Virus record (IMG/VR): IMGVR_UViG_3300046007_005129
Location: 1 to 29,413 of that record
Strand: one strand, 5' to 3'
DNA: 29,413 nucleotides
Origin: a virus
Part shown: one piece after another, positions 546-26,497 of the stretch
How the letters are laid out: each line of letters starts with the position of its first letter
Position numbering within the stretch: the first letter of the stretch is position 1
Notes under the pieces: generated by a model
Seen by the model: the letters and a program-made list of their open reading frames with translations, nothing else
What the model was told of the DNA's origin: nothing
Database searches by the model: none
Position numbers and translations under genes: made by a program

Positions 546-3545
546 TTAATTGTTATTAATTGTGTATCTTACTTTGAACGTTCCATTCAATCTTAATTGC
601 GATAAAGCAACAATATCAAATGATGTATTGTCAATTATATTGTCTGGCATAACCGTTCCATACAATGAAAATATTTGATGTTCCATTGCATTATGATCTG
701 CTGATGCCGTACTCATTATATAAATATGTATGTTTGAGTTATTTGTGACATTTGGAGTAGAAATTGATGCTGTTGCATAATTGCTTCCCGGAGGTGCTCC
801 AAAATCTATTGTTGCTTCGCCTTTAACGATGCTTGATACAGTACCTCGCAATGATCCGGTAATTGCAACACCAGCCGCGGTTGACTTGATGGATGTTTGA
901 ATGCTACCGGTGGCATCCAACATATTGATGGTACCATTCGATACCCAAATGTCTTTCCAGGCCTGTGTTGCAGATCCTAAGCTAAATGATGATGTTACTG
1001 ATCCAGATACTGCTGGTAGAATTGAACCTGACATTAGCAATGAGCCTGATATGGTCACATTACCGGCTGCTGCTACTAGTAGATTGTGTTGTATTGAATT
1101 ATTAGGGTCTCCATCTCCTACAATAAATGCACCTTGATCGGATATAGGTTTATTCCCTATACCCACTACGGATTGGTACCAGCCTAGTGTTTGGACCTCG
1201 TACCCAGCTGCATGAGAGTACTCTCCTATAGTTTTAGACTGAAGACCTTCTGTGTGGGAAGAATTACCTAAGGGCACATCAGCAGTGGGCGGATTTGGAG
1301 TTCCATAAACACCTATTTTTATTCGATTGAAATTCGAAAACGTAGTAACTGTGTTATCGACTAACGTTATTTGCGTTAACGATGATGTAAATGCTGAGGA
1401 TGATACTTCGAATAGGTATGTATTTTGTAGTGTACCGTTAATAGTGTCAAGATCACCACTACTATCAAAAACTACCGCGAAACCACCAGCACCAAAATTC
1501 CCTGTTTGATCACCATATATTGGTTCGAGGTTAATAACGCCGCCGGTTATGTGAGCATTTATTCGATATGCATTGTATCCAGCTGTTGTACCTTCACCTT
1601 CTGCATGTGAGTAAGAGCCATAAGTAGTACCTTGGCCTTCTGCGTGTGAGGCTGCACCGTATGCTTCACCACCGCCTTCTGCATGGGAGTATGGACCATA
1701 TGCCTTGCTTTCGCCTTCTGCATGGGAGTATGGACCATATGCCTCGCTTTTGCCTTCTGCGTGTGAGTATGCACCCTGCGCTGTTGAACTATTACCTTGT
1801 GCATGAGCTGCATATCCTCCCCATACCTGATCTCCGGTGTTGCTAGCAAAATTCGTAATACTACCAATGCTAGCTGTGCTAGTAAGAAAACTAGTGCCAG
1901 TTACATGCACTAGTGTATTTGTTCCGTTGAAAGAACATGAAGCGGCTGTTAAATTGGTATAGGTGTAGATGGCGCCATATTGTGAATCATCTACACCTAT
2001 TAAATTTCCTGCGTCAAATAGTCCAAGTCCGGATAAGTCTCCATATGATGAAGAAATCGTAAATACACCTGATGCGGTCATTGTAGCGTAATAGCCGGAA
2101 GCATTACCGGTGATTGTACTCTCACCTTCTGCATGAGAGTTATTTCCATATGTTGTTGCGGAACTTCCTTCGGCATGGGAGTATAGTCCATATGTTGATG
2201 CACCATTACCTTCTGCATGAGAGTTATTTCCATATGTAATTGTACTACGACCTTCAGTGTGTGACCCCACTGATGTTGCAATTGTGCCCTGACCTTCTGC
2301 ATGAGAGTAATTACCAACTGCCTGTGTATTATATCCTTCTGCATGGGAGTGAGGTCCGGTTGCGGTTGTTTGTTGACCTTCTGCATGGGAGTATGAACCT
2401 GATGCAATCGTGCTGTCACCCTCTGCATGAGAAGCTTCTCCTATTGCTTGTGTAGTTCGTCCTTCAGTGTGGGAGTAGTTTCCAATCGCTTTAGTACCAT
2501 TACCTTCAGCATGAGATCCTATACCAATAGCTTGAGATACTCGTCCTTCAGCGTGAGAGTATTGGCCAAAAGTTTGAGTTTGTTGTCCTTCTGCATGAGA
2601 GAAGTCTGCTACTGCATTTGTGTAAAATCCTTCGGCATGTCCTGCGGTCGCAGTACTACTACCCCCACCTGCCCAACTACTATAAGGATAATCCAAACTA
2701 CCAAATACCAGTTTAATATCGGTTATTGATGTATTAGTTAACGTGATAGTGGTAGTTGAACCATTCCATATGGAACTACTAACTATGAATGAAGTGTTAT
2801 CCGGATATGCGTTGCTATCATAATATAAACGATCTCCAGCTTCAAATACAGTAGTTAAATCTTGGTTCATTACTATAACGCCGGCGGTTATTGCGTTAAC
2901 ATTATACAATGTGTTAGTAAAAGTAGCAGATCCAGAACCTTCTGCGTGTGAGTATGGCCCCGTCGCAAGAACGTCCCTCCCTTGTGCTTGAGAGAATGTT
3001 CCGTCAGCTGATCCGCCTAACGATTGACTTAATTGCCCTGCTAAAGTTAATACTGAGCCGTTAAATGTTAAATTTGTTTCGCCGTTAATCGTACCGGTAC
3101 CGGTGGCAGTTAGTATGTTGTTGTTAGTGTTGTTTGTAATTGAACTATTTATTCCGGTGGCATCAGCTGCAATTGTTGCAAACGATGAACTTAATGCTTG
3201 TGATGCAAAAGATGCAGTTGCGTTAAGTATACCCGTATTAGCGCCTGCTACTGTATAAGTTAGTGGTGCTCCTGTATGGATAGCTATTGGGGCTGGGTTA
3301 TTTATAGAGGAGGAGGTGCCTGACTCCACCATTGTTAATGCAAATGATCTTGTATCTGCAGTAGTTAGAATTTGTATTGCAGATTTAGATGCACTAGTTG
3401 CAAAAGATGCACTAACTGCTTGGGTTGCATATGATGCGGTTCCAAATAACGATGATGTTATTCCTCCGGTTACGCGTAGCGATCCGGTGACTTCTGAGTT
3501 CCCTGTAGAAAGGAAACCGTTGCGTATTTTAAATTCGTTTGGCAT
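546..3545 (-). CDS. Large trimeric-type tail fibre / adhesin with SH(A/T)EG head repeats
   Basis: This 999-residue protein starts at ATG 3545. Residues 1-130 hold a phage-fibre N-terminus with ASYATQAVSASFATSASK-type repeats. From about residue 199 there are 19 copies of SH(A/T)EG spaced about 13-14 residues apart. This resembles the YadA/hemagglutinin head repeat that folds into a trimeric left-handed beta-roll. The repeats form three blocks (about 316-474, 581-652 and 763-781, with one isolated copy at 199), separated by three non-repeat modules of about 100 residues. Residues 890-999 form a distinct C-terminal domain ending in a strand-rich FKVRYTINN. By family analogy this is a surface-exposed receptor-binding fibre. 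It is the longest gene of the adhesion block and follows a 74-residue gene by 44 bases. A promoter-like box lies at 3571-3584, and there is no clear SD. Confidence 0.8.
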   Translation of the reverse strand: MPNEFKIRNGFLSTGNSEVTGSLRVTGGITSSLFGTASYATQAVSASFATSASKSAIQILTTADTRSFALTMVESGTSSSINNPAPIAIHTGAPLTYTVAGANTGILNATASFASQALSSSFATIAADATGINSSITNNTNNNILTATGTGTINGETNLTFNGSVLTLAGQLSQSLGGSADGTFSQAQGRDVLATGPYSHAEGSGSATFTNTLYNVNAITAGVIVMNQDLTTVFEAGDRLYYDSNAYPDNTSFIVSSSIWNGSTTTITLTNTSITDIKLVFGSLDYPYSSWAGGGSSTATAGHAEGFYTNAVADFSHAEGQQTQTFGQYSHAEGRVSQAIGIGSHAEGNGTKAIGNYSHTEGRTTQAIGEASHAEGDSTIASGSYSHAEGQQTTATGPHSHAEGYNTQAVGNYSHAEGQGTIATSVGSHTEGRSTITYGNNSHAEGNGASTYGLYSHAEGSSATTYGNNSHAEGESTITGNASGYYATMTASGVFTISSSYGDLSGLGLFDAGNLIGVDDSQYGAIYTYTNLTAASCSFNGTNTLVHVTGTSFLTSTASIGSITNFASNTGDQVWGGYAAHAQGNSSTAQGAYSHAEGKSEAYGPYSHAEGESKAYGPYSHAEGGGEAYGAASHAEGQGTTYGSYSHAEGEGTTAGYNAYRINAHITGGVINLEPIYGDQTGNFGAGGFAVVFDSSGDLDTINGTLQNTYLFEVSSSAFTSSLTQITLVDNTVTTFSNFNRIKIGVYGTPNPPTADVPLGNSSHTEGLQSKTIGEYSHAAGYEVQTLGWYQSVVGIGNKPISDQGAFIVGDGDPNNSIQHNLLVAAAGNVTISGSLLMSGSILPAVSGSVTSSFSLGSATQAWKDIWVSNGTINMLDATGSIQTSIKSTAAGVAITGSLRGTVSSIVKGEATIDFGAPPGSNYATASISTPNVTNNSNIHIYIMSTASADHNAMEHQIFSLYGTVMPDNIIDNTSFDIVALSQLRLNGTFKVRYTINNN
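1590..2600 (-). repeat. DNA-level SHAEG repeat array within the fibre gene
   Basis: Degenerate direct repeats of about 39-42 bases each encode one SH(A/T)EG unit; on the plus strand they read as variants of CCTTCTGCATGGGAGTA. Two adjacent units at about 1673-1750 are almost identical over a 39-base period (TGCATGGGAGTATGGACCAT at 1680 and again at 1719). The array is interrupted at about 1812-2114 by a non-repeat module. Such near-identical units could allow unit gain or loss by recombination. Confidence 0.8.
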
Positions 3546-7986: not shown

Positions 7987-9206
7987 TATGCCCACCTTCC
8001 ATTAATAATTATGGTGTCTGTGGAATCTATGGTATAACCTAATGTTGAAGTATCAAATACAATGGTTTGTGTTGTCGTGTCAGCCGGTGTCCATGTATAT
8101 ACATCTTTATCAATATATTGTCCGTTAACGTATACATTGAATTCATTTTTCGTTGCAACAGTTAATGAAACTGGGTTGATTTTTGCATATGCATTTACTG
8201 TAACAGTTGTGGATGATGAATATGATGCAGTTTTATCAGTTAATGCCGTTAAATACAACATGGTGTTTCCATCTATTGTTGCATTAGTTCCGCCACTAAC
8301 TGTTACAGTACCACCATTACTAATATAATTTTGTGCTTTTAATAACGATGGTGGAACAACTGTACTACTAAAAATATCTTCAGAAACATCAACAACTTGA
8401 TCAAATGTTAATTTTTTCAAAGAAAACATTTTTCTTAATGTAGATCTGCGTGCTTCTTGCTCTGATAACAATGTTCCTAAAACAGTTAATGGTATTGTTG
8501 CTCGCACTAAACGATCTTCTCCAACAGTGTTAACAGTTTCAAATGAAACTTGTCCTATGGTAGTAGAAAATTTATTTGCTTCATTACCCCATGCAAATCT
8601 ACCATATGGGAGTATTTGGTCTACAAGTGAATTCATTTGAGCTGTAAAGTCACACCATAACATCATTTCATATTCAATCGTAACATATTTTGGAATATCT
8701 GCAATATAAACTTTTTCAGATTGAGCCGGATCATTTGTTGGAATCGGAAATAGTTCATCTTGATAACGATTTCTTTCATTGTACTTAGTTTTATATATTC
8801 GTACGTTTTCAGACTGAGGTCGATTTGCATCTAATGATTTTACTGAATCTCGTTCTGTTACTGAATTTCGTTTTAACATGATTACCGGTGATTGTAGCAT
8901 TCCCTTTTCATCGCGGATATATCCCAATCTACGAACATTATCCCATTTTTCTCCGTTAGAAAATATGACAGGTACGGGTATCAATTGTTCTTGTGATACA
9001 ATTTGCGGTTGAATTTCATTATCAATAAACCACTTAATTGCATAATCAATATCATAAATTGTTCGTTTTGCAGTTCGTATGACATCATCATCTCTACGAA
9101 TTTGTTCTGAGCGATTCAGTATTAAATCTGATTGCAACCCTTCGGTTTGTAAAGGATTTGGTTTATTTGTTTTTTGGTCAATATTTTGTCTATTCAGTCT
9201 TGGCAT
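7986..9206 (-). CDS. 15: Tail completion / sheath-stabiliser protein, gp15-like, with C-terminal extension
   Basis: In T4, gp15 caps the tail tube and sheath and joins the tail to the head neck. The support here is order (directly after gp13- and gp14-like genes) and sequence pattern. The middle of the protein contains VTIEYEMMLWCDFTAQMNSL followed by VDQILPYGRFAWGNE and RATIPLTVLG, which parallels the T4 gp15 stretch with MIYELSIFTRYEDDMFQIVE and QILPYFQPHF. At 406 residues it is much longer than T4 gp15 (272). About 110 C-terminal residues form an extra beta-rich domain ending NEFNVYVNGQYIDKDVYTW and DTIIINGRWA, like a small decoration or Ig-type module. The start overlaps the upstream stop (TAATG at 9206) and has AAAGGA as SD. 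Confidence 0.65.
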   Translation of the reverse strand: MPRLNRQNIDQKTNKPNPLQTEGLQSDLILNRSEQIRRDDDVIRTAKRTIYDIDYAIKWFIDNEIQPQIVSQEQLIPVPVIFSNGEKWDNVRRLGYIRDEKGMLQSPVIMLKRNSVTERDSVKSLDANRPQSENVRIYKTKYNERNRYQDELFPIPTNDPAQSEKVYIADIPKYVTIEYEMMLWCDFTAQMNSLVDQILPYGRFAWGNEANKFSTTIGQVSFETVNTVGEDRLVRATIPLTVLGTLLSEQEARRSTLRKMFSLKKLTFDQVVDVSEDIFSSTVVPPSLLKAQNYISNGGTVTVSGGTNATIDGNTMLYLTALTDKTASYSSSTTVTVNAYAKINPVSLTVATKNEFNVYVNGQYIDKDVYTWTPADTTTQTIVFDTSTLGYTIDSTDTIIINGRWA

Positions 9207-9724
9207 TAAAATCCTTTATATGCAAAATTATTGTTTCCGCCTCTACGTAGATTTTTTATACCTTGTGGTGTTTGTCGTGTTGCATGTGCATCACATAAAA
9301 CAGATACACTATAACCATGTTGTGAACCATTTGGCCATGTTTCGGGATTTTTTCCAGTAAAATATTGATTAGCATCTACATTGTCAATTTCATAATATTC
9401 ATTATCCCATAATATGATATCGCCAACTTCGGGATAAAAATCTGCTTGTTCTAATATATCTCGTGTTATTGCAAATTGAGCTGTTCGCGTATATGTATGA
9501 CCGTAATCATCCATAGTTGCAGTTTTGTTTTCTTTTGTAATTAAACATGGAATTAATATTGAATCATAATATGATTTTGCATCAGATTCGCCATATATAT
9601 TTGAATTGCTCCGTTCTACAATTAATTTATAGAATTCAATTTCAGTATCAATAATTGCATTTAATAATTCTGAGTTAATTGATGCTAAAAATTTTGCATC
9701 TCTCATTCCACCAAATAATGCCAT
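9206..9724 (-). CDS. 14: Neck protein, gp14-like
   Basis: This 172-residue protein begins MALFGGMRDAKFLASINSEL. The C-terminal half contains YPEVGDIILWDNEYYEIDNV followed by DANQYFTGKNP. This parallels the T4 gp14 segment with [20 protein letters not shown], in the same place relative to gp13 and gp15. It is shorter than T4 gp14 (256 residues). By family knowledge gp13 and gp14 close the packaged head and form the neck to which the tail attaches. The gene has one of the strongest SD sequences in the window (AAGGAGA six bases before ATG 9724). It overlaps the gp15-like start by the TAATG arrangement, indicating one operon. Confidence 0.65.
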   Translation of the reverse strand: MALFGGMRDAKFLASINSELLNAIIDTEIEFYKLIVERSNSNIYGESDAKSYYDSILIPCLITKENKTATMDDYGHTYTRTAQFAITRDILEQADFYPEVGDIILWDNEYYEIDNVDANQYFTGKNPETWPNGSQHGYSVSVLCDAHATRQTPQGIKNLRRGGNNNFAYKGF

Positions 9725-9735
9725 ATTTTATCTCC

Positions 9736-10974
9736 TTATCCCACATAAATTTTTAATGGAACTTTGCCTAAAATTTCAATCATTTGCGTTGATTCTGCAT
9801 TTTGACGTGTTAGCATCTGTTCTTTAGTTAATTTATCTAAAAATTCTCTCAATTGCCCGATAAGTGCATCTTTTTCAGCTTGTCCTTGTGAAACTAAATC
9901 AGAACCATTTAATGTTACTTCTGCATTAGGTATTGGAATTGATGAATATTTACTACGTACATATCCTAACATTTCTTTTACTAGTGCAGAACCGTATTTA
10001 ATTATCCAAGCACGCCCCATATCATTAATGCTACTGTATGTTTGATATGTATATGGTATATTAGATGCGTCACTTACAACCCCGTTTAAAAGTGCTGTAT
10101 TACCGAATAAAAGTGCATCGCGATCTTTTTCATCTGCAAATATATATTCTACCCAAACTTGACCGTAAAATATAGTAGATGCTGAACTTCCGGTACCGGT
10201 TGTTGGGATTGGATAAAATTTAATATCATCTCCGTGTATCTCAAATGAATAATGAGACTTACGTATTTGATCATTGAATTCAATTGCTTGAAGTCTCAAT
10301 AAATCTGCATGTATTGGCATCATCATGAAACTAATCGACGGTGAAAATCCTCCGAAGTTAAATGAATCTAATAATTGTTGAGAACCTAAACCCGTTCCTA
10401 CGAATGGATCGAAATATCTAGCAATGGCAGGAGGTGGTTGATGCATTACTCGTTTAATTTCAATCGAACTAGTTGGAGATAATGATCCTCCGGCTGCTGA
10501 CATTGATGCTGAAACTGTATTTCTTATACTATATGTTTGTTGGCCCGGTACCATTGGAATTTCAACTTTATGCCAACGTACTGTTCCGCCGGAGTCTGCT
10601 TCCGTTCCATATGCTTTAGATAATTTTGTAATATATCCTAACGAAGTTCCTACAACTGCCCCGGTAAATCCTTGTGGACCTAAAAAACTAGATCCTGTTT
10701 GTATACCCAACGTACTCATCAAATTGTTAGTAATATTAATCTGATTGATTTGATTGGAATACTCCATCACAGCAGCTTCGAATGCAGTATAAAAATTTAT
10801 GTCTTCAAGCTCAACATCCATTATCGGATATCCAACATGTTGTGCAGCAAATTTTGCAAATCGATCTGCATGTTGTTGAAACATTGGATCTGTATCAAAA
10901 AACCCAAATGGTGTAGATCCAGTTGTGAATGAAGAAGAACCTGGCCATATTGGTTTATCTTGACTATAATCCAT
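9736..10974 (-). CDS. 13: Neck / head-completion protein, gp13-like
   Basis: This 412-residue protein contains, near residues 22-70, FGFFDTDPMFQQHADRFAKF, then AAQHVGYPIMDVELEDINFY and TAFEAAVMEYSNQ. This is the N-terminal pattern I associate with neck proteins (gp13 type) of marine T4-like phages. Further on it has KFYPIPTTG and QVWVEYIFAD. It lies directly before the gp14- and gp15-like genes, as in T4. By family knowledge gp13 joins the portal after packaging and prevents DNA leakage. SD: AAAGGAAA before ATG 10974. A promoter-like box at 10985-11000 precedes it. The name rests on order plus pattern, not on an alignment. Confidence 0.65.
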   Translation of the reverse strand: MDYSQDKPIWPGSSSFTTGSTPFGFFDTDPMFQQHADRFAKFAAQHVGYPIMDVELEDINFYTAFEAAVMEYSNQINQINITNNLMSTLGIQTGSSFLGPQGFTGAVVGTSLGYITKLSKAYGTEADSGGTVRWHKVEIPMVPGQQTYSIRNTVSASMSAAGGSLSPTSSIEIKRVMHQPPPAIARYFDPFVGTGLGSQQLLDSFNFGGFSPSISFMMMPIHADLLRLQAIEFNDQIRKSHYSFEIHGDDIKFYPIPTTGTGSSASTIFYGQVWVEYIFADEKDRDALLFGNTALLNGVVSDASNIPYTYQTYSSINDMGRAWIIKYGSALVKEMLGYVRSKYSSIPIPNAEVTLNGSDLVSQGQAEKDALIGQLREFLDKLTKEQMLTRQNAESTQMIEILGKVPLKIYVG

Positions 10975-10984
10975 TACGTTTCCT

Positions 10985-12075: not shown

Positions 12076-13740
12076 CTAAAGAGTGTTTAATCCGTGAACG
12101 TATACTTTTCCGTAGAATTCTGGACGAACTACTTTCTTCGCGTAACGTGTCATGACACCTTTACGTGGAGTGAAGTTAACTGGATCGTATACAAGTGGAG
12201 TCATAATCAATGGAATATATGGACTAAATACAGCACCTGTTTCAAGGAACTGAGACCCACGGAATCCCATAAGGATTACATTCTCTAACATATATGGATT
12301 TTTGTAAACTGTGTAACGATTATTGATTGCACCAATTTTTTGTACACCTGCTGCAAATTCCATTTTAGTACCATCTGTGTCAGCGGCAAATCCTGGGATA
12401 GACTCAAGAATAGTTGCAACTGCAGGAGACGTTACTAAGAAGTTAGCACCACCACGCAATGTTTTTTGGTGAATCTTGTTACTTACTTTTTGAAGTTTAG
12501 TACCAAGAGTTTGGAACCATCCACCTTGAGTGTTGTAGAATCCATCACCCAATGCACCAGCTACACCTGCAGCTACAGTTTCAAATGCACCAGTTGATGT
12601 GTTATAAATTGTATTGTTTCGAGCTGACCAATATTCAGTTGTTGGAGCTGCTGCAATCAACATATCAAGGATTTCAAGATCGATTTCCATTGATACATAC
12701 TCAGAAAGCATTGAAGTCAATTCAGCTTCAGCATCAATTGAATGGTAAGCATTTAAATCTTGAGCAAATTCAGGAGTCCAAACTGCTTTCAACTTACGAG
12801 TCTTAGCAACGATTGGCTCAGATTGCATTTCAAGGTTAATTTCTGGGATATCAATATCCGTACCAGAATTAATACCACCGTTATTATAAGCAGTACCTTT
12901 AAATGGATTAGCATCTTCAAAATCACCACGAGTGATATCTGTAGGTTGTTTGCTATAGTTCAATCTCAATGTACCAGCACCAATTGAAGAAGAAACAAAT
13001 GCAGCATTTGCAGTTGAAAGAACGAATGATGCAGTGTAATTGCTAGTAATAGTTGAGAATGCTTGTACTGGAACGATTTCAACAGATGCAGAAGTAAATG
13101 TGAATGAACGAACTGCGTAAAGATCTGCGTTAGTAGGAACGTTAACTGTCAACATTTTCCAGCTAGCAGATCCAGAATAAGCAGAGTCACCATTAACTTG
13201 TGCTGTTGTTGGTTGAGAACCTGTTGCAGCAGTTACGATAGATGATGTTTCATTGATTGAATATCCGAAACGACCTGCACCATAAAGACCTCCTGATGGA
13301 TCGCCAGATGTAGTAGTAACACCGAACATTGAATCGTCTGCGTTTGGAGAACCAAATGGATCACCTGTACGGTTCAAGTTATCTGCATCAAATCCTGGTT
13401 GAGCTGTACCATATTTAAAGTCTAGGAAGAAAATAAGACCTGATGGCAAGTTCATTGGTTGAACAGAAACGAATTCTTTTGCTGCAAATTCAGCAAAAAT
13501 ACGACGAACCAATGGAAGAGCAACACCTGCCCATTCTTCTGATCCTGCTGCAACACCTGTAGATGAAGCTTCTTTTACTAGTTGACGTGCTTGGTTTTCA
13601 AGCAATTGAGCCATACCTGCTTTTTCGGTTTCGCCCTTAAGACCTTCTAATAGTCCGGTCTTTTCCCACTTCGAAGTCAATGCTTTTGCAGCATTTCGTT
13701 GAACGAAGTCGTTTGTTTGTAATAAATTTGAAATACTCAT
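12076..13740 (-). CDS. 23: Major capsid protein, gp23-like
   Basis: This 554-residue protein opens MSISNLLQTNDFVQRNAAKA and contains WEKTGLLEGLKGETEKAGMA and QLLENQARQLVKEA, a typical gp23 N-terminal region. It is followed by VALPLVRRIFAEFAAKEFVS and VQPMNLPSGLIFFLDF, characteristic of the T4-type HK97-fold capsid protein. The C-terminus (VVRPEFYGKVYVHGLNTL) is also typical. It lies immediately after the scaffold gene (21-base gap) and is followed by a strong terminator, as expected for the most abundant virion protein. In T4, gp21 cleaves the gp23 propeptide after an (L/I)xE sequence; LLE strings near residues 30-50 are candidates, but I cannot fix the site. The SD AAAGGAAA precedes ATG 13740. 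Length is close to T4 gp23 (521). Confidence 0.95.
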   Translation of the reverse strand: MSISNLLQTNDFVQRNAAKALTSKWEKTGLLEGLKGETEKAGMAQLLENQARQLVKEASSTGVAAGSEEWAGVALPLVRRIFAEFAAKEFVSVQPMNLPSGLIFFLDFKYGTAQPGFDADNLNRTGDPFGSPNADDSMFGVTTTSGDPSGGLYGAGRFGYSINETSSIVTAATGSQPTTAQVNGDSAYSGSASWKMLTVNVPTNADLYAVRSFTFTSASVEIVPVQAFSTITSNYTASFVLSTANAAFVSSSIGAGTLRLNYSKQPTDITRGDFEDANPFKGTAYNNGGINSGTDIDIPEINLEMQSEPIVAKTRKLKAVWTPEFAQDLNAYHSIDAEAELTSMLSEYVSMEIDLEILDMLIAAAPTTEYWSARNNTIYNTSTGAFETVAAGVAGALGDGFYNTQGGWFQTLGTKLQKVSNKIHQKTLRGGANFLVTSPAVATILESIPGFAADTDGTKMEFAAGVQKIGAINNRYTVYKNPYMLENVILMGFRGSQFLETGAVFSPYIPLIMTPLVYDPVNFTPRKGVMTRYAKKVVRPEFYGKVYVHGLNTL

Positions 13741-13761
13741 TTCTTTTTCCTTTTTTTAATG

Positions 13762-14724: not shown

Positions 14725-14754
14725 TGTTTCTCCTTAAATTTGTTTTTTGGAAAT

Positions 14755-14899: not shown

Positions 14900-15145
14900 T
14901 TAATTTTCGTTCTTAGAACGTATTCGTTGAATATATGAAGCTTTGGATTTTTGATCTCTTTGTATCACACTTGGCTTAATATACTCCTTGCGTTCTTTAA
15001 CTATATTTAATATGTTTGCAGCTTTTACTTTTCTTTTCCACGCTTTAAGCGCATGTGTCAAATCATACATTTCTGTCCCTACAACGCTTACTGCTAATGC
15101 ATTACCTGGAACGATTTGTTGGTGTTGTTTTTGTTTTTTACTCAT
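14900..15145 (-). CDS. rpsU: Phage-encoded ribosomal protein bS21
   Basis: This 81-residue basic protein matches bacterial bS21 across residues 30-76: ALKAWKRKVKAANILNIVKE, RKEYIKPSV, then IQRDQKSKASYIQRI. These align with the ALKKFKRK..GI..E.R.R..F.KPSV..R..K...Y.Q frame of bS21. The KPSVxxR and AxYxQ elements resemble the Bacteroidota version more than the proteobacterial one (KPTTER). It carries about 25 extra N-terminal residues (MSKKQKQHQQIVPGNALAVS...). bS21 is a small-subunit protein near the 3' end of 16S rRNA and affects initiation. bS21 genes are known from other phages, where they are thought to join host ribosomes. No SD precedes ATG 15145 (AATAAGTTAT). It is followed by a strong terminator and then the capsid genes. 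Confidence 0.85.
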   Translation of the reverse strand: MSKKQKQHQQIVPGNALAVSVVGTEMYDLTHALKAWKRKVKAANILNIVKERKEYIKPSVIQRDQKSKASYIQRIRSKNEN

Positions 15146-15150
15146 ATAAC

Positions 15151-15609
15151 TTATTGTTTAACTTTAAATCTAAATTTATTGATTCCTGGTGATTGTGATA
15201 TATAACCTTGAATACGTTGCGATTCTTTATATGGATCTTCACCTAAACGAAAATAAATATATCCAGCTTTCGAACCAGACTTAGTATCATATATTTTTTT
15301 AGTAATTACATCGAAGCCTTTTTTCTTTGCCCACATAAGAATATCAACCATAGTTTGTTTAGCTAATGCAGGATCAGTAAATAACATTTCGACGCCGCCT
15401 TGATAATCAGTAATTTTATTTACTAGTTCAGCTTCATCTAATTCGGCATTTTCTAATTTAACATCTAAACCTTGATCTGTCATTTTTTTAATATCAGCTG
15501 GTTTTGATATTTTTGACATTCTAACCGATCCTTTTGTAGAAGGAGTACCCGGAGTTACTTGTTCAGTTAATCCAAAAAAGTCTCGATATAATTTTTTAAG
15601 TTTATTCAT
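15151..15609 (-). CDS. Hypothetical prohead-region protein (152 residues)
   Basis: I chose ATG 15609 (MNKLKKLYRDFFGLTEQVTP) over an in-frame TTG two codons upstream, because ATG is followed by a typical N-terminus and AAGG lies about 11 bases before it. The N-terminal 20 residues are amphipathic and end in LTEQ, a possible (L/I)xE cleavage site for gp21. A linker (PGTPSTKGSVRMSK) and a compact alpha/beta domain follow (KQTMVDILMWAKKKGFDVIT, AGYIYFRLGEDPYKESQRI). The family is not recognised. The gene lies between gp21 and gp22, where T4-like phages often carry core or internal head proteins. Confidence 0.65.
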   Translation of the reverse strand: MNKLKKLYRDFFGLTEQVTPGTPSTKGSVRMSKISKPADIKKMTDQGLDVKLENAELDEAELVNKITDYQGGVEMLFTDPALAKQTMVDILMWAKKKGFDVITKKIYDTKSGSKAGYIYFRLGEDPYKESQRIQGYISQSPGINKFRFKVKQ

Positions 15610-15620
15610 TATCAATATAC

Positions 15621-16033: not shown

Positions 16034-16660
16034 TTATATAATCCTACATTTACCATCTTCACATAAAATTGATGTAATGATGTTATTTACTTTTTCATAT
16101 TTGTTTGTATTTGTATTTACTGATTCATTCATTCTTGTAGGACGCATAAATGCCCCATGAGTTGATGGGTTAGAAACAAAATCCCAACATATTAGTTCAA
16201 AATCTTCTTGAACTTCAACAGCGCTTTCATTACGTAGTTCTTTAACCGATCCTAATCCGCGAGATGATATACCTAAAGTAATACCGGCTTTAAACAGTTC
16301 TTTAAGTATTTTTCCGGAAGGTGTATCTAATATCTGTACAGCACCTTTTAAATCATCCCCATCCCACCAAATTTTTAAAACGTTGTGCGACACGTTGTTT
16401 AGATTAACTATAGAAGATTCTGGATGATCTAATTCACCTAATGCTCTATGCTGATCAATATATTCTGTTTGATATCGTCTACATTCGCGTTCTAAAATAT
16501 TTTTAGGATATATTCTTCCGTTTTGATTTTTTGCACCTGCTCGTTGTAAAACTCCTTGTACTACAAAACCACCTGGTATTCCATATGCAGCACCGTTAGA
16601 TTCCGTTAAAGAACCAACCGGTTTAAATGGCATATATTCTACTATTAGTTGTTTTGACAT
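16034..16660 (-). CDS. 21: Prohead core maturation protease, gp21-like
   Basis: This 208-residue protein belongs to the T4 gp21-type serine protease family (MEROPS S80, herpes-protease-like fold). It has GELDHPE with the likely catalytic His79, and LGISSRGLGSV with the likely nucleophile at Ser132/Ser133. It also has a typical YPKNILERE element (51-59) and WDFVSNPSTHGAFM (around 165-180). In the family it cleaves scaffold, core and capsid proteins after (L/I)xE sequences and then itself. It lies two bases after the previous gene and has an AGGGGAAT SD-like string before ATG 16660. Length matches T4 gp21 (212). Confidence 0.93.
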   Translation of the reverse strand: MSKQLIVEYMPFKPVGSLTESNGAAYGIPGGFVVQGVLQRAGAKNQNGRIYPKNILERECRRYQTEYIDQHRALGELDHPESSIVNLNNVSHNVLKIWWDGDDLKGAVQILDTPSGKILKELFKAGITLGISSRGLGSVKELRNESAVEVQEDFELICWDFVSNPSTHGAFMRPTRMNESVNTNTNKYEKVNNIITSILCEDGKCRII

Positions 16661-16661
16661 A

Positions 16662-17366
16662 TTATTCCCCTAATGATCTTATTTTTTCTGATATTTTTAT
16701 CAATCGTTCTGATATTTTTGTTAATGCTTTCGTAGTAGAAGGTCCATATGACGTCGATGTTACTCCTGATTCTGTTTTTAATTTGGAATTATAATTTACC
16801 AATGTTTCAATTTCAGAAAGTTTTTTTGCAATTTCTTGTATTGTTTTTTTAACTTTAACAGACGGTTTAACATCTTCAGATTTAAAATTGCGATAATTTT
16901 CAACCAATTGTTCGTATTTTTGTTCTATTACATCTTCAACTTTAAGTTTTGATTTTCTAGTTTTTGCATCATGATCTTTTTTGTGTGCAGTGCCAGGTGA
17001 ATTTGTAATATCTTTAGATGGATATTCCATATCTTTATTCCACCAAATATCATGATTAATAGCAAATGGAAATTTATCATTCTGAACTTCTTCATCAAAT
17101 TCAACTGTTTGATATTCTCCAGGCTTATATGTTTTTGAAACTGATTTTGTAGATTCATTTACTCCAGAAGCATATCCAAGTTTTTTATTTTTCCATTGAC
17201 CTGGTTTAGCAAATGCTGCAGGTGTATTAAATCCAGCAACTCCCCCGGTTGCTGAAATTTCATCTAACTCATCTTCATCACCTAGTTCATTATCTGGTGA
17301 TATCATATCACTATCTTGTTCTAATTCAAAAAATTTATCTTCTATTTCTTTAAGAAATGACTTCAT
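16662..17366 (-). CDS. Hypothetical prohead-region protein (234 residues)
   Basis: The protein begins MKSFLKEIEDKFFELEQDSD, a short amphipathic charged N-terminus reminiscent of the capsid-targeting leaders of T4 internal head proteins. It continues with acidic low-complexity, a Gly/Ala-rich segment (ISATGGVAGFNTPAAFAKPG) and YASGVNES. A middle domain carries DIWWNKDMEYPSKDITNSPG and HKKDHDAKTRK, and helices lead to the C-terminus (TKALTKISERLIKISEKIRS). I do not recognise a family. It overlaps the upstream gene by ATGA (17363-17366), has AAAAGGA as SD, and ends one base before the gp21 start. By position it is a candidate core or packaged head protein. Confidence 0.7.
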   Translation of the reverse strand: MKSFLKEIEDKFFELEQDSDMISPDNELGDEDELDEISATGGVAGFNTPAAFAKPGQWKNKKLGYASGVNESTKSVSKTYKPGEYQTVEFDEEVQNDKFPFAINHDIWWNKDMEYPSKDITNSPGTAHKKDHDAKTRKSKLKVEDVIEQKYEQLVENYRNFKSEDVKPSVKVKKTIQEIAKKLSEIETLVNYNSKLKTESGVTSTSYGPSTTKALTKISERLIKISEKIRSLGE

Positions 17367-18263: not shown

Positions 18264-20108
18264 TCACAAAATGTTATTTTCATCTAGTATCGTACCTGCA
18301 TCTTTATCTGATACGGAATTATCGGTTGATTTTAGTGATTCAGTAATTATTGATACTCCTTTATTTTTTTTAGATTTTAATTTTTTAACGAAGCTTTCAA
18401 CTGCAATTGTCGTACCGGCTGCGTTTCTAAAATTAGGATCTGGCTGAAATGCATTTTTTTGATTTTCCGGATCGAATGCTTGTTTTAATTCTTTTCTACC
18501 GGATGGATCCCATCCAAATGCATTTTTATGTTGTCCAGATTTAATTCCTTCCGGTGGACGTCCGCCAGTATCTGTGTCTTCAACTTCTTTGCTTGACATA
18601 TGCACGGTTGCTAAATCATGTGGTGTACCAAATGAAATTCCTGTAATTGCTGGATCATTACCTTCTTGTTCAATTTGATTCTGACGGAAACGAAGTTTAA
18701 GATCTTCGATAACATTAGTACGTTCTTGCAACCATTGTTCTTCTGACATATTAAAAATAAATTCATATATGTATTGATCGGAAACTAATTTAGAATCTTT
18801 CATTGCATTAGCTAATGTTATTTTTTCATTCATTAGCGCAACTTTTTGTTGATCATAGATAATCGATGGAGCTGTTAATTGCAATTCAAAGCCAACTAAA
18901 TCTTCTCCTTCAAATCCTTGTGCATATAAATGTACAATAGCAATCTTAGTTAATTCAGAAACTACAATTTTTTGTATACGTTCAATTGTTCTAGCAAATC
19001 GAATATCCATTGATGCTAATGTAGTTTTACCTTCAACTGCTTCAGCATATCCTAGAAATGGCTTTGGAATTTTAAGTGCAGCCATCATTTTATCTTTGAT
19101 ATATTCAATATCATCCATACCGGTAAAAGTCATACCTGGCAATGTATCAATTTGAGTAGATGATTGTCCTCCCCGAACTGGTAAATAATAATCTTCCAAC
19201 ATGTTATTTAAGTTGAATCGTAAATTGTAATTACCAGTTTGTGGATCAACGTGTGGAATTTTTTTCATCTTGTTGATAATTTGTTCCATAAATGAGTCAA
19301 CTTCATTTGGCGGAATATTACCGATATCAATTTTAAAAATACGTTTTTCTGGAGCACGCATAATACGATGAATCAACATTGCATCTTCCATCATCATTAA
19401 TTTTTGAAATTCTTTACGAGCTCCTTCTAACATAGATCTACCGTATGGTAAAAAGTTAGAATCAGACAGCATACGAAAATGTGCTATTTCAAATGTATCA
19501 TATGTCATTTGTTCTGAAGCGATATTTTTAAATTTAATTTCATATTCGCCAGTTGCTTCATTGTATTCTTCCCAACGTTCCATTTCGTAACTAGAAAATG
19601 GACGAGCATTAATAATTCCGTATTCTTCAGCAATATCCAATTTAAGGAAAAAGTCTCCATATTTAGCTAAATTACGAATCCATGCCCATAGATTAAATTC
19701 TATATTTAATACATCGTAAAATAAATTATAAAGAATTTTTTGTACGTTTGTTTTATTTGATTTGATTGTTAATATTTCTCCAAACTGATCTGCTAATGTA
19801 GATTCATCAGAATAAATATCTAATGCCGAATGTATAATCGGATCTTTATCCATCATTTCGTAATCTGCATAAAGTTGCATACGATTTTGATGCATATAAT
19901 AGTTGGAATCATATCCACCCATTCCGCCTACACGATGTCTATTAGCACCATGTAATCGAGTATATCTGTCAGCTATTTTACTTTGACCTAAATTACCGGC
20001 ACTTTGTAATCGATTTGTATCGACTATTTTTAGTTGATCTTTTCCGTATGCCCGAACAATTACATTGGTAGTAAATAGATTCTGTAAACGTTTTCTTAAT
20101 GACGCCAT
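18264..20108 (-). CDS. 20: Portal vertex protein, gp20-like
   Basis: This 614-residue protein has the T4-type portal signature: DPIIHSALDIYSDESTL early, NLAKYGDFFLKLDI, then MLEGARKEFQKLMMMEDAML and IHRIMRAPEKRIFKIDIGNI. These are followed by GQSSTQIDTLPGMTFTGMDD and KMMAALKIPKPFLGY. This arrangement is diagnostic for gp20. The dodecameric portal nucleates the prohead, is the docking site of the terminase and later of the neck. It lies 48 bases after the terminase gene and before the protease/scaffold/capsid genes, as in T4. The C-terminal about 100 residues are polar low-complexity (TGGRPPEGIKSGQHKNAFGW). Length is somewhat above T4 gp20 (524). A recurring box lies directly upstream, and no SD is seen before ATG 20108. 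Confidence 0.95.
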   Translation of the reverse strand: MASLRKRLQNLFTTNVIVRAYGKDQLKIVDTNRLQSAGNLGQSKIADRYTRLHGANRHRVGGMGGYDSNYYMHQNRMQLYADYEMMDKDPIIHSALDIYSDESTLADQFGEILTIKSNKTNVQKILYNLFYDVLNIEFNLWAWIRNLAKYGDFFLKLDIAEEYGIINARPFSSYEMERWEEYNEATGEYEIKFKNIASEQMTYDTFEIAHFRMLSDSNFLPYGRSMLEGARKEFQKLMMMEDAMLIHRIMRAPEKRIFKIDIGNIPPNEVDSFMEQIINKMKKIPHVDPQTGNYNLRFNLNNMLEDYYLPVRGGQSSTQIDTLPGMTFTGMDDIEYIKDKMMAALKIPKPFLGYAEAVEGKTTLASMDIRFARTIERIQKIVVSELTKIAIVHLYAQGFEGEDLVGFELQLTAPSIIYDQQKVALMNEKITLANAMKDSKLVSDQYIYEFIFNMSEEQWLQERTNVIEDLKLRFRQNQIEQEGNDPAITGISFGTPHDLATVHMSSKEVEDTDTGGRPPEGIKSGQHKNAFGWDPSGRKELKQAFDPENQKNAFQPDPNFRNAAGTTIAVESFVKKLKSKKNKGVSIITESLKSTDNSVSDKDAGTILDENNIL

Positions 20109-20156: not shown

Positions 20157-21737
20157 TTAACGTATCAACCAAGTTAAATCTTGATCGCCGTCACCTGGAT
20201 TCCAGTTCCATCCAGTATCTCGTAACGTTGTTCTGCCGGTATAAATGGTAGGATTTGTTTTTTGAAATGATGATAATGCACGTTTATTTAAATCTATACC
20301 ATGTTGGCGTAATTTTAATGCAGTATCACGTAACCACAATGTAATTGCAAATGACATAACTAAATCATCGTTATAGCCTTGTTGTGCTTGTGCTTTACCA
20401 TTTAACCATACAAACACTAATAGTTCTTGTATTAGTCTCTTACTACGAATTAATGGAGTTTTTTCTCGCATATACATTTCTAATGCAGATATCATTAATG
20501 GCCTTGTACGAGATGTAGTTGATACACCTGGAACCATTTGGGTTTTATCTTTCATATCATAACCTTTCTTAAGTTGAACATCTGCATCTACATATCCATC
20601 ATCTTTATATGTATAATGTAAATTTTGATATCCTCGATCTAAGGCCGGTTGAATTGCAGCCCAACCAATATTTGCATTTTCAATTGCTAGCAATGCATTG
20701 TTCCATTCAGTTGCAACTGTAACTAACATGTTACCAAAATCATTTGGTGCAATTTTACCTTTATATTCTGCAACTTGTCGTACTGATTCTACATCAAATA
20801 TTTGAAATGTTGAAAAATCAGCGCCATCACCTCGAGCGACGTCTGCTACTACTGTATAGTCTCGTGCATAATCCGGATATTCCCAAACCCAATAATTTCC
20901 GTCAAATCCTCGCCGTTCAATTGGTTCTTCGGTGGCAGAATCATATTCTAATAATAACGGGCCATCAACAACAGTATGTCCAGAACTTACGAAGTCACAA
21001 TCACATTCTTGTGCTGCACCGCGTTCACCTAATAATTGTGTTTGTTCATCACGCCATACTTGATCTCGTTCTGGGTGTACGGTCCAATGCAATTTAATTG
21101 TATGAAATCCGTTTATGTCTGCTTCTGCATCTGCCCAGGTTTGATGAAACCAATTACCAACACCATTAGGAGTAGATAATACTATAGCACCACCACCCGT
21201 TGATAATGTTGCTTGAGATGCAATCCATATTTCTTCAATGTTCCGTATGAATGCAGCCTCATCAACAATTAACAAAGACAATGCTTCAGAACGTGCACCG
21301 GTGGTTGCCGATGATACTGCTTTGATCTGCGAACCATTTTTAAATTTCAATGAAAGTTTATTATCCGCTTCAACATTTCCTTTTAACCAACTTGGCAAAT
21401 TTTCATGCATGACGCGTACTTTTGTTACTAGGTTTTTTGCTACTTCCTGTGTAGTTGCAATAACTAATACATTGAAATCTTCTGCAAATAACATGCTCCA
21501 TAAAGCAAATCCGGCAGATAATGTTGATATACCTAACTGTCGAGACTTAAGAATAACATTGTATCGATTATCTCGTAATTCAGTTAATGAATCTTCCTGA
21601 AATGGAAATAAATTAAATTTAATCTTACCCCGCTTCGGATGTTGTATATAACAATAATTGCGCATGAAAAATACAGGATCTTTAGCACACATCATGTACT
21701 GTTGCTGTATTATTTGCTTTATATTAGGTTGAGACAT
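20157..21737 (-). CDS. 17: Terminase large subunit, gp17-like
   Basis: This 526-residue packaging motor has an ATPase domain with a Walker A-type SRQLGIST (65-72), Walker B LLIVDEA (155-161, D159/E160) and coupling motif STPNG (188-192). The RNase H-like nuclease domain has VVADVARGDGADFST (first metal Asp299), AIENANIGWA (Glu353) and YNDDLVMSFAI (Asp457/458). All key residues of a headful-type terminase appear present. The motor docks on the portal, pumps DNA into the prohead and cuts the concatemer. It is followed by the portal gene and preceded, after 3 bases, by the putative u-spanin-like gene. No small terminase subunit is recognised nearby. Length is somewhat shorter than T4 gp17 (610). 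There is no SD before ATG 21737. Confidence 0.95.
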   Translation of the reverse strand: MSQPNIKQIIQQQYMMCAKDPVFFMRNYCYIQHPKRGKIKFNLFPFQEDSLTELRDNRYNVILKSRQLGISTLSAGFALWSMLFAEDFNVLVIATTQEVAKNLVTKVRVMHENLPSWLKGNVEADNKLSLKFKNGSQIKAVSSATTGARSEALSLLIVDEAAFIRNIEEIWIASQATLSTGGGAIVLSTPNGVGNWFHQTWADAEADINGFHTIKLHWTVHPERDQVWRDEQTQLLGERGAAQECDCDFVSSGHTVVDGPLLLEYDSATEEPIERRGFDGNYWVWEYPDYARDYTVVADVARGDGADFSTFQIFDVESVRQVAEYKGKIAPNDFGNMLVTVATEWNNALLAIENANIGWAAIQPALDRGYQNLHYTYKDDGYVDADVQLKKGYDMKDKTQMVPGVSTTSRTRPLMISALEMYMREKTPLIRSKRLIQELLVFVWLNGKAQAQQGYNDDLVMSFAITLWLRDTALKLRQHGIDLNKRALSSFQKTNPTIYTGRTTLRDTGWNWNPGDGDQDLTWLIR

Positions 21738-24001: not shown

Positions 24002-26497
24002 TCATCGTGCGTATTTCAATACGCCTAGTATTTGATTTACTGGTGCAAATGCCCCTGTCATCTTATATGTGTTGCCTTGGAATGTAAATACGATTCCTTC
24101 TGAAGGAACAATTGAATCAAACCCGCCTAATTTTTGTATGCGTCGTAATTCCAATTCTAACTTGTTTAATGTATCAGCGTTAGGTGAATTTTGCAATTCT
24201 CGTATTAAATCAGCCATTTCTGTTTTAATTGTTTGTACCGTTTTATTTGGATTAGCTGCTAAAAAATTAGATGCATTCTGTAAAACTAATACACCTAACC
24301 GCAAAAAGATTGATTCAAATGGTTCTAAGTTTTGTTTTCGATATTGTTTGAAATCTTTTTTATCAAATTCAGTTATCCAATTTTGAAATTCTGGATTATC
24401 GACTTGTTTTTTGAGCATTGCAATGTTTGTAGATTTATCATCAAACGCCCAACGATATATTAATGTATTTAAAACATTTTCCGGAATATCATATCCTATT
24501 TGTTGAGCTTTGGTTTGAATAACATCTTTCCACCACGCTTTATGATATTCTCTAATTAAATCCGTTTCGTTTAAATTATATTTTTTTTGCAATTGATCTA
24601 ATTCATTAAAAAAAGCAGCTTGTTGATCTTCAAAATCATATACTTTACCTAATTTAATACGTTGTGGAGGAATAAATGAAAATGTGTTTTGCATATGCGC
24701 ATTTGCATCTTGTATGATATTCTGCATCAATGTTCCGCCTTGCAAATTAGTTTCAATTGCATTACCTTTTTCATCATATTCTACTAAATTATGAAATTGT
24801 AAATGTGCTCTATCATATGCAATAACATTACGTGTTGCCGGATAAATTATTTCCATGTTTGCAAATACACGACCATTTTTAAATACATTTTCTAATGTGT
24901 CTGGCGCTACTTTTTGCATTGCAGCTGTTACATCTTGGGTCATTTCTCGAAATGCATCTACAACTAATTTATATCCCTGTGATGCATCGGCTCCATTTTT
25001 TTGTATAGATTCTTGATACTTTCTTTCAAAATCTGCAACTAGTTGATCCGGCGTCATAGGATTAATTATAGTACCTTTATTTCTTGCAAATCCTGGTTGA
25101 CCATTTTTCCATGTAATGAATATATTTTGACCATCTGTTTTTTCAGTTACAGCTTGTTCTATGTCTAATCTTCCAGATAATGCTCTAGATATCAATTCTC
25201 GTATATCATTAAATGATAACCCATGATCATCCCATGGATGTGCCATATGACCTGCAGCGCCACCTTCGGTTATTAATTTACCTTTAGGTGTTGCTGATTC
25301 AATTGTATATATTATATCATTTGGATTATTCGATTTCCATGGCCGTCGTTGTGCTTTTATTGTTCTAGGTATCAATTTGATTTGACCTAATTGTGAATCA
25401 AATTCCAATTGAAAGGGCATATGAATTGGAATATCAAATTGATAATCAGATGTTATTGCTGTCGGGCGTTTTGTTGATAATTGTTGTGCAATTTGATCGC
25501 CATGTTCTATTGATAAATCTCTAAATAAATTTTCTAAATCATCTAAACGTATAGTTCCTTCATTTCTCGGATCATTTAATCGTTCAATGAAATGTGTAAC
25601 CTGACCTTGGAAATCTACATCAATTCCAAAACGTTTAAAGAAACGATCGATAATCGGTTCGATTGATTTTAATTCTTGACGAGTAATGTAATTTTCACTA
25701 AGTACGCCTTCCATTAATTTAGCACCAAATACTGTTTTTTTGAATGTATCAAAATCATAAGTAAATGATTTTCCGGAGTTGTTATCTAAAAATGAACGTA
25801 GCTTTTTTATTTTTTCTGCATGCCGTTTTTTTTCTTTAGGAAACATCATTGATTCGAATACTGATATATCTGCAGATAATTGTTTAGTCCACCATTCCGG
25901 AGAAAATGTTTTTGATTCTTGTAATCCTTTCAACATGGACCATGCATTTTTTACTTTAGCATCATCATATTTTGGATATGATGCACGAAATATAGCATAA
26001 TCATCTGTTGCAATTGCATTTCGAACAGTTGTGGCTGATATCGGTGTTCCGTCTTCATATGCTAATGGATCAACGTTAATACTAAGTTCTATTGCGTCGA
26101 TTCCATTTGGCATCGTTCTACCTTTTTTATCTCCAATTGTTATGTATTTATCTACATTAGGAACAAAATCTTTAGTTCGTACGTAATCATCTCCTTTTGT
26201 TGAAGCAGCCATAGCATAACGTCCGGTTGCATCTTCTGGCAATGCAAATAAGTATTCGTATGCTGCCATTATCGGAGAATTAAATTCGGTAGGTTGTATT
26301 TCAATATTAGGATTATTATTTAGTACATTGAATAAATTAATTGTTTGGTCTCTAGTAATTCCGTCTCGTTCTTTAGGTCCGATTAGAAGTATAACGCGAT
26401 CTACATCTGCAGATTGTGCATATCGATTAGCTAATTCTAAATGCGCTCCCGTCAATGGTTTAAATCCGCCGGGAAATAAGACTGTTATTCGATCCAT
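24002..26497 (-). CDS. Nucleotidylyltransferase fused to a polynucleotide-ligase-like domain
   Basis: This 831-residue protein appears to have three parts. Residues 1-190 are a HIGH-superfamily nucleotidylyltransferase: VLFPGGFKPLTGAHLEL carries the (H/T)xxH motif as T16-G-A-H19, and TPISATTVRNAI carries the ISxTxxR motif (153-159). The middle (about 265-400) holds ELKSIEPIIDRFFKRFGIDV and DIPIHMPFQLEFDSQLGQIK, a pattern I recall from uncharacterised proteins of marine T4-like phages. The C-terminal part has covalent-nucleotidyltransferase (ligase) motifs: motif I TEKTDGQNIF with Lys453, motif III FANMEII (Glu549), LQFHNLVEYD, motif IV SEGIVF (Glu800) and motif V YKMTG (Lys812). It may adenylylate a small molecule and join or modify nucleic acid ends, but the substrates are unknown. 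It sits in the structural region with a recurring box upstream. Confidence 0.75.
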   Translation of the reverse strand: MDRITVLFPGGFKPLTGAHLELANRYAQSADVDRVILLIGPKERDGITRDQTINLFNVLNNNPNIEIQPTEFNSPIMAAYEYLFALPEDATGRYAMAASTKGDDYVRTKDFVPNVDKYITIGDKKGRTMPNGIDAIELSINVDPLAYEDGTPISATTVRNAIATDDYAIFRASYPKYDDAKVKNAWSMLKGLQESKTFSPEWWTKQLSADISVFESMMFPKEKKRHAEKIKKLRSFLDNNSGKSFTYDFDTFKKTVFGAKLMEGVLSENYITRQELKSIEPIIDRFFKRFGIDVDFQGQVTHFIERLNDPRNEGTIRLDDLENLFRDLSIEHGDQIAQQLSTKRPTAITSDYQFDIPIHMPFQLEFDSQLGQIKLIPRTIKAQRRPWKSNNPNDIIYTIESATPKGKLITEGGAAGHMAHPWDDHGLSFNDIRELISRALSGRLDIEQAVTEKTDGQNIFITWKNGQPGFARNKGTIINPMTPDQLVADFERKYQESIQKNGADASQGYKLVVDAFREMTQDVTAAMQKVAPDTLENVFKNGRVFANMEIIYPATRNVIAYDRAHLQFHNLVEYDEKGNAIETNLQGGTLMQNIIQDANAHMQNTFSFIPPQRIKLGKVYDFEDQQAAFFNELDQLQKKYNLNETDLIREYHKAWWKDVIQTKAQQIGYDIPENVLNTLIYRWAFDDKSTNIAMLKKQVDNPEFQNWITEFDKKDFKQYRKQNLEPFESIFLRLGVLVLQNASNFLAANPNKTVQTIKTEMADLIRELQNSPNADTLNKLELELRRIQKLGGFDSIVPSEGIVFTFQGNTYKMTGAFAPVNQILGVLKYAR

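Follow-up and report, generated by a model that had tools for sequence, protein, structure and literature searches.

Of all ribosomal proteins, bS21 is the one most often carried by bacteriophages, and the stretch of viral DNA analysed here (an IMG/VR virus record of 29,413 bases, hereafter the window) raises the question of what this protein may do when it is encoded among the head genes of a phage that appears to infect Bacteroidota. Within the Flavobacteriales, Shine-Dalgarno (SD) sequences are otherwise almost absent (McNutt et al., PMC9976891), and in Flavobacterium johnsoniae the loss or mutation of bS21 raises the translation of strong-SD reporters (PMC9976891). That Bacteroidetes phages can encode bS21 next to their capsid genes is already known (PMC9723584), and Chen et al. 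(2022) proposed that the phage protein is taken up into Bacteroidetes ribosomes to the benefit of late phage mRNA, while the anti-SD stays occluded (PMC9723584). The initial annotation of the locus had suggested that the phage protein replaces the host copy in favour of late phage mRNAs, and that it switches SD usage: the former idea is not new, since it has been published for Bacteroidetes phages (PMC9723584), and the latter gains comparative support below (from contrasts between clades and between early and late genes), at the level of a correlation and with the aromatic residue at position 54 still in place.

The bS21 gene, its tail and the head operon

The window protein exceeded the cut-off of Pfam PF01165 (Ribosomal_S21; E 2.5e-9, 37.1 bits, cut-off 27), fell marginally short of the NCBIfam S21p equivalog TIGR00030 (28.9 bits vs a cut-off of 28.95), matched the S21 PHROG (E 6e-4) and had F. 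johnsoniae bS21 as its closest PDB chain (7jil_z, E 1.9e-6), which bears out the identity initially assigned to it. Its AF2 model (mean pLDDT 80, tail at low confidence) displays the three-helix bS21 arrangement (helices 25-41, 44-50 and 57-79), with the same helices as the F. johnsoniae protein, its closest solved relative. The position of F. johnsoniae Tyr54, whose aromatic ring stacks on the 3' tail of 16S rRNA and helps to hide the anti-SD, is occupied by Tyr71, and is aromatic in 52/52 distinct proteins (23 Tyr, 29 Phe) of what we term the W clade (loci with a window-type bS21 and shared synteny, ~85 of which were gathered in two scans of viral contigs). The retention of this residue predicts, on its face, that anti-SD occlusion continues. 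In Escherichia coli, bS21 contacts both the SD and the 3' end of 16S rRNA through its N-terminal region, and Arg17 and Arg21 lie against the SD (PMC10123108). Aligned for such anti-SD contacts (by eye), as the initial annotation had proposed, the phage protein keeps the equivalents of these arginines (Lys34 and Arg38) together with aromatic 54, and departs from bacterial bS21 in its tail. The F. johnsoniae protein differs from the phage one in having no tail; it is autoregulated and its own gene bears an extended SD (PMC9976891), whereas the phage gene has none.

The first 15 residues of the phage protein (consensus M(S/N)KKQKQHQxIVPGN) are nearly invariant among the 52 distinct W proteins (mean entropy 0.51 bits, vs 1.05 for core residues 28-75) and were found in 0/32 bacterial bS21 proteins. 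As phage residue 16 is the one that pairs with Met1 of the host protein in the alignment, and the usual N-terminal strand spans residues 16-27, the extra N-terminus amounts to ~15 residues and not to the 25 first supposed. Since the Val, Pro and Gly codons of the tail vary freely, selection on it acts on the protein and not on RNA, and its reading as a conserved RNA element was ruled out. The relatives were ranked by likeness to the window protein, so that the frequency of the tail among them need not be that of all phage bS21. We found no paper in the open-access literature that describes the tail or tests SD use in bS21 phages, and a tail more conserved than the bS21 core, with no bacterial counterpart among the 32 proteins, appears to be new.

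All 27 inspected genes of the window lie on the minus strand. Read in that direction they run terminase, portal, two small genes, protease, 135-aa gene, 154-aa gene, bS21, scaffold and gp23 capsid (Table 1), which agrees with the site before scaffold and capsid given at the outset. The gp17, gp20, gp21 and gp23 homologs thus follow the order of a T4-like myovirus head module, and bS21 sits inside the terminase-portal-protease-capsid region, as in the phages of Chen et al. (2022). A Pfam search of the 320-aa product at the scaffold position gave no match. The window protein is confirmed as a bS21 that a T4-like phage encodes within its head operon.

The 154-aa product is a probable internal head protein cut by the prohead protease: its N-terminus (MNKLKKLYRDFFG(L/I)xE) is conserved and a second (L/I)xE precedes AQL, both resembling the sites at which T4 internal head proteins are cut by the prohead protease. 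Beyond these sites a ferredoxin-like domain is modelled with confidence, whose structural matches include bS6 chains, level with many other folds. Since bS6 forms the anti-SD pocket together with bS21, the neighbour was considered as a bS6 mimic; this reading is unsupported, the bS6 chains being tied with ACT, NikR and EF-1beta domains. Homology to its positional counterpart in Microcystis phage Mel-JY01 was likewise rejected by profile comparison. In one sub-group (L142, L145-L149, L157) the gene is enlarged to ~326-336 aa, with a domain inserted after the first cleavage site. Elsewhere in the window (both on the minus strand) we observed a 999-aa tail-fibre-like protein (546-3545; >20 SHAEG/SHTEG repeats, with a likeness by eye to YadA-type head repeats) and an 831-aa protein (24002-26497) with no Pfam match, whose Mel-JY01 counterpart is annotated as cytidylyltransferase-like; the latter is possibly a nucleotidyltransferase fused to other domains.

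Table 1. Features of the window around the phage bS21 gene.
Feature	Position	Strand	Evidence
Terminase large subunit gp17	20157..21737	minus	PF03237 E 2.2e-11; phrog_2 E 2.6e-42
Portal gp20	18264..20108	minus	PF07230 E 3.4e-66
Prohead core protease, gp21 type	16034..16660	minus	PF03420 E 6.8e-32; leader AGGGG at 16667-16671
154-aa gene directly upstream of bS21	15151..15615	minus	always adjacent; (L/I)xE sites; ferredoxin-like C-terminal domain
bS21 (rpsU-like), 81 aa, ATG start	14900..15145	minus	Pfam PF01165, 7jil alignment
bS21 residue map: 1-15 phage-specific tail; 16-27 normal N-terminal strand; 28-81 bS21 core
Tail codons, MSKKQKQHQQIVPGN	15101..15145	minus	conservation over 52 distinct proteins
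SD AAGGAG of scaffold gene, next to bS21	14730..14735	minus	31/33 distinct leaders
Prohead scaffold-like gene, 320 aa	13762..14724	minus	between protease and gp23; acidic; homologous in all relatives
SD AGGA of major capsid gene	13748..13751	minus	38/38 distinct leaders
Major capsid gp23	12076..13740	minus	PF07068 E 3.1e-73
SD AGGA of 412-aa gene (9736-10974), behind late-promoter-like TATTTATATA	10981..10984	minus	16/25 leaders
SD AGGAG of 172-aa head/neck-region gene (9206-9724)	9732..9736	minus	22/24 leaders

Relatives and host

Approximately 80 IMG/VR relatives carry the same neighbours on the same strand, far above chance, and where the flanks suffice the W order is terminase, portal, 285-aa, 234-aa, protease, 135-aa, 154-aa, bS21, scaffold, capsid, 91-aa, PhoH and 412-aa, all on one strand; the long W contigs span 110-169 kb (G001, G002, G003 and G014). 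The closest cultured phages are Flavobacterium phage immuto, which shares the syntenic T4-like head region and the same early and late promoter types without bS21 and without SD, and Mel-JY01 (PP395634.1; L053, L351-L353), which together with its relatives has an N-extended bS21 at the same locus and strand and SD-rich leaders, but carries Lys/Arg for aromatic 54, another N-extension, and SD on early genes as well. The W and Mel-JY01 clades are sisters in the capsid tree (97/100), and in the bS21 tree their proteins likewise form one group, separate from the bacterial and Chen-like sequences (96/89). Judged from these trees, a single gain of bS21 and SD in the W/Mel-JY01 ancestor would be the simplest history, so that the correlation between the two comprises few independent events; as the contrast between SD and no SD comes mostly from one clade, it may represent one historical event.

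When phage bS21 loci were compared in 25 clusters, SD use hardly departed from that of shuffled leaders wherever the protein is of canonical length, and was enriched wherever it is N-extended, the exception being a small N-extended locus without enrichment (L040). Two further contigs (G661 and G662) combine W synteny and an N-extended bS21 with Arg in place of aromatic 54, use SD (32 and 36% vs 16 and 17%) and have TAnnTTTA promoters (4/31 and 4/17); altogether, this residue was replaced by Arg/Lys in three sister groups that use SD (the Mel-JY01 clade and G661/G662).

The jumbo phages of Chen et al. resemble the W clade in the placement of bS21 among terminase, portal, protease and capsid, in aromatic 54, in their predicted Bacteroidetes hosts and in the late role proposed for the protein (PMC9723584). 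Their bS21 lies on the strand opposite to the structural genes (as in L042-L052), whereas that of the W clade is on the same strand throughout; moreover, the Chen-like loci L042-L052 encode a tailless bS21 of 59-64 aa and show no SD excess, in contrast to W. The same study found bS21 only above ~70% TerL similarity (PMC9723584), and the window TerL is 26-29% identical to those of the Chen-like loci (which we do not equate with the paper's named genomes). Outside this group, Pelagibacter phage HTVC008M also encodes a bS21, which was shown to enter E. coli 70S ribosomes (PMC6375957), but it is of alphaproteobacterial origin, has 67 aa and serves a host that is not SD-blind in the Bacteroidota way. 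Alternative bS21 proteins likewise alter which mRNAs get translated in Francisella (PMC9578407), although these homologs are cellular paralogs, not phage proteins, and have no link to Bacteroidota anti-SD occlusion.

The affiliations of the bS21 relatives, the conserved aromatic 54, the early promoters (described below) and the 50-54 genes common to W and immuto point to a Bacteroidota host. The 50 confirmed bacterial bS21 relatives all came from Bacteroidota-labelled records with the exception of one contig, and the Bacteroidota-type core recognised in the initial annotation stands. The exception (L120) was binned under the name Polynucleobacter, but its bS21 is identical to those of Crocinitomicaceae, and the contig is likely a bin contamination. 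Neither a search of 395 genomes with the capsid protein (no match) nor a DNA search of 240 Crocinitomicaceae-family genomes (no convincing spacer) named a host. The signs of a Bacteroidota host do not amount to proof: W and Mel-JY01 have as many genes in common (56-61). In Mel-JY01 itself, TTG-N18-21-TAnnTTTG occurs in 16/76 upstream regions (0.6 expected); such Bacteroidota-type promoters render its recorded Microcystis host doubtful, and this cyanobacterial assignment may be an error, with the phage possibly coming from a Bacteroidota companion of the cultured strain. A 158-kb T4-like contig in a Crocinitomicaceae-family genome (G500:C147; L343-L350) has SD-rich leaders and no bS21; its TATAAT-type promoters argue against its use as an example of an SD-using, bS21-free Bacteroidota phage and indicate that it was probably misbinned.

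Shine-Dalgarno usage and its early/late split

Counting GGAG, GAGG or AGGA at -20 to -5 of the start as an SD motif, we recovered it in 37% of W head-region leaders (12% when shuffled) and in 22-25% of all leaders on the long W contigs (7-9% shuffled), figures in which some starts are wrong owing to the simple longest-ATG caller; Bacteroidota contigs (4.4 vs 4.0%) and immuto (3.1 vs 4.7%) remained near the shuffled level. The energies of pairing to the 16S tail of F. johnsoniae point the same way as these counts, the motif peaks sharply at -15 to -6 in the W and Mel-JY01 clades (with no such peak in the immuto clade), and AGGAG occurs 53 times, vs at most 12 for its non-overlapping permutations. 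Gene by gene, SD was present in the capsid leaders of W (38/38) and of Mel-JY01 relatives (14/14) and absent from those of immuto relatives (0/19); for the scaffold the respective counts were 31/33 (29 with AGGAG or GGAGG), 8/10 and 0/10, and for the protease 22/36, 0/14 (AGGTG or GGGGG instead) and 0/18. The leader of bS21 itself has an SD in 2/40 W loci, and many late genes (terminase, portal and the 91-aa gene) have none. The phage SDs are of ordinary strength, and those of Bacteroidota rpsU pair below -13 kcal/mol (PMC9976891). The presence of SD together with a tailed bS21, and its absence in bS21-less relatives and in phages with a bS21 of normal length, appears to be new; this use of SD indirectly argues against a full occlusion of the anti-SD.

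The W relatives have repeated early promoters (TTGACACG...TTAnnTTTATAT) of the form TTG-N18-21-TAnnTTTA (17/56, 9/66 and 12/42 on W contigs vs ~0.5 expected), a form shared by immuto (24/59 upstream regions vs 0.4 expected); Bacteroidota contigs carry TTTG instead of TTTA (45/324). An earlier assignment to sigma-70 (TTGACA/TATAAT) was replaced by TAnnTTTA on the evidence of the sites themselves and of immuto. With early and late classes defined by promoter motifs only (the window itself has no early region), SD was found in 2/47 W genes behind early promoters, in 35/66 behind the late motif TATTTATA and in 96/447 elsewhere (early vs late, Fisher p 1.3e-7 on three of the four contigs, which are related genomes and not independent). 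The early leaders are A-rich and without SD, and early genes of G002, G003 and G014 (L055, L069, L178) share the leader AAAGAGAGATATG behind TTGACACG...TTAnnTTTATAT. In the immuto clade the same late motif is followed by SD in 0/12 cases (genome) and 3/59 (loci), and the SD can therefore be put down neither to the type of promoter nor to the length of the leader. In the Mel-JY01 clade SD also stands behind early promoters (10/18), and the timing there does not fit a switch. Judged by these comparisons, the early/late split in W seems to be new.

A possible switch of translation initiation

Early in infection, unmodified SD-blind host ribosomes would translate the SD-less early phage genes; the bS21 mRNA, since it too has no SD, could be translated by the same ribosomes. 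Phage bS21 made from the head operon would then enter the host 30S in place of Bacteroidota bS21. There its altered N-terminal side, with the conserved basic and Gln-rich tail lying where mRNA exits and SD meets anti-SD, would free the 16S 3' tail for SD pairing, to the advantage of late mRNAs that bear an SD (those for scaffold, capsid and neck proteins, among others). We consider such a switch, in which bS21 turns SD-blind ribosomes into SD-reading ones, to be the best single explanation, with a chance close to but short of even; that each infection would run on two initiation codes (SD-less early on host ribosomes, SD late on ribosomes with the tailed bS21) is put forward more tentatively. 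The main doubts about the switch lie in the aromatic residue that is kept, the moderate strength of the SDs and a host assigned by comparison.

This last doubt leaves some room for a W host that already uses SD (a Bacteroidota/FCB member or another phylum), with bS21 as a passenger of some general role, a reading that we hold to be improbable but worth weighing. It draws on the loss of aromatic 54 in the SD-rich, N-extended Mel-JY01 clade and G661/G662, on the SD of Mel-JY01 early genes and on the Microcystis host recorded for that phage; such a host would not require W early genes to be without SD (2/47), and the match of W early promoters to a proven Flavobacterium phage and the Bacteroidota-like bS21 core with aromatic 54 speak against it. 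The mode of action proposed by Chen et al., in which bS21 replaces the host copy and boosts late phage translation with SD recognition unchanged (the SD motifs having some other purpose), is in our estimate unlikely: the conserved aromatic 54, the location of bS21 among late genes, as in the published phages (PMC9723584), and the late genes that lack SD (terminase, portal, the 91-aa gene and others) accord with it, but it leaves unexplained why properly spaced AGGAG/AGGA were gained specifically in W and are absent in bS21-less and canonical-bS21 phages.

Distinctly less probable is that the SD-bearing late mRNAs exploit ribosomes lacking bS21, after the phage has displaced or degraded the host protein, and that phage bS21 only keeps these ribosomes functional. 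In F. johnsoniae, mRNA with a strong SD is indeed favoured by ribosomes without bS21, and the same work suggests that a phage protease might act on the host protein (PMC9976891); no displacing or degrading factor was identified here, however, and the phage SDs are weaker than that of rpsU. That the phage bS21 acts off the ribosome, packaged in the head or as a decoy, we regard as very improbable: although it adjoins a probable internal head protein and packaging of phage bS21 has been floated (PMC9723584), its tail has no (L/I)xE capsid-targeting site and the SD-contacting residues are kept as Lys34/Arg38.

Taken together, the W clade and immuto put the question of the role of phage bS21 into a form sharp enough to test, as they share head genes and promoters and have SD only where bS21 is present. 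If the association is causal, it would represent a viral rewiring of translation initiation via one ribosomal protein, and the phage bS21 would be a naturally evolved means of exposing the anti-SD in Bacteroidota, in which expression based on SD does not otherwise work.
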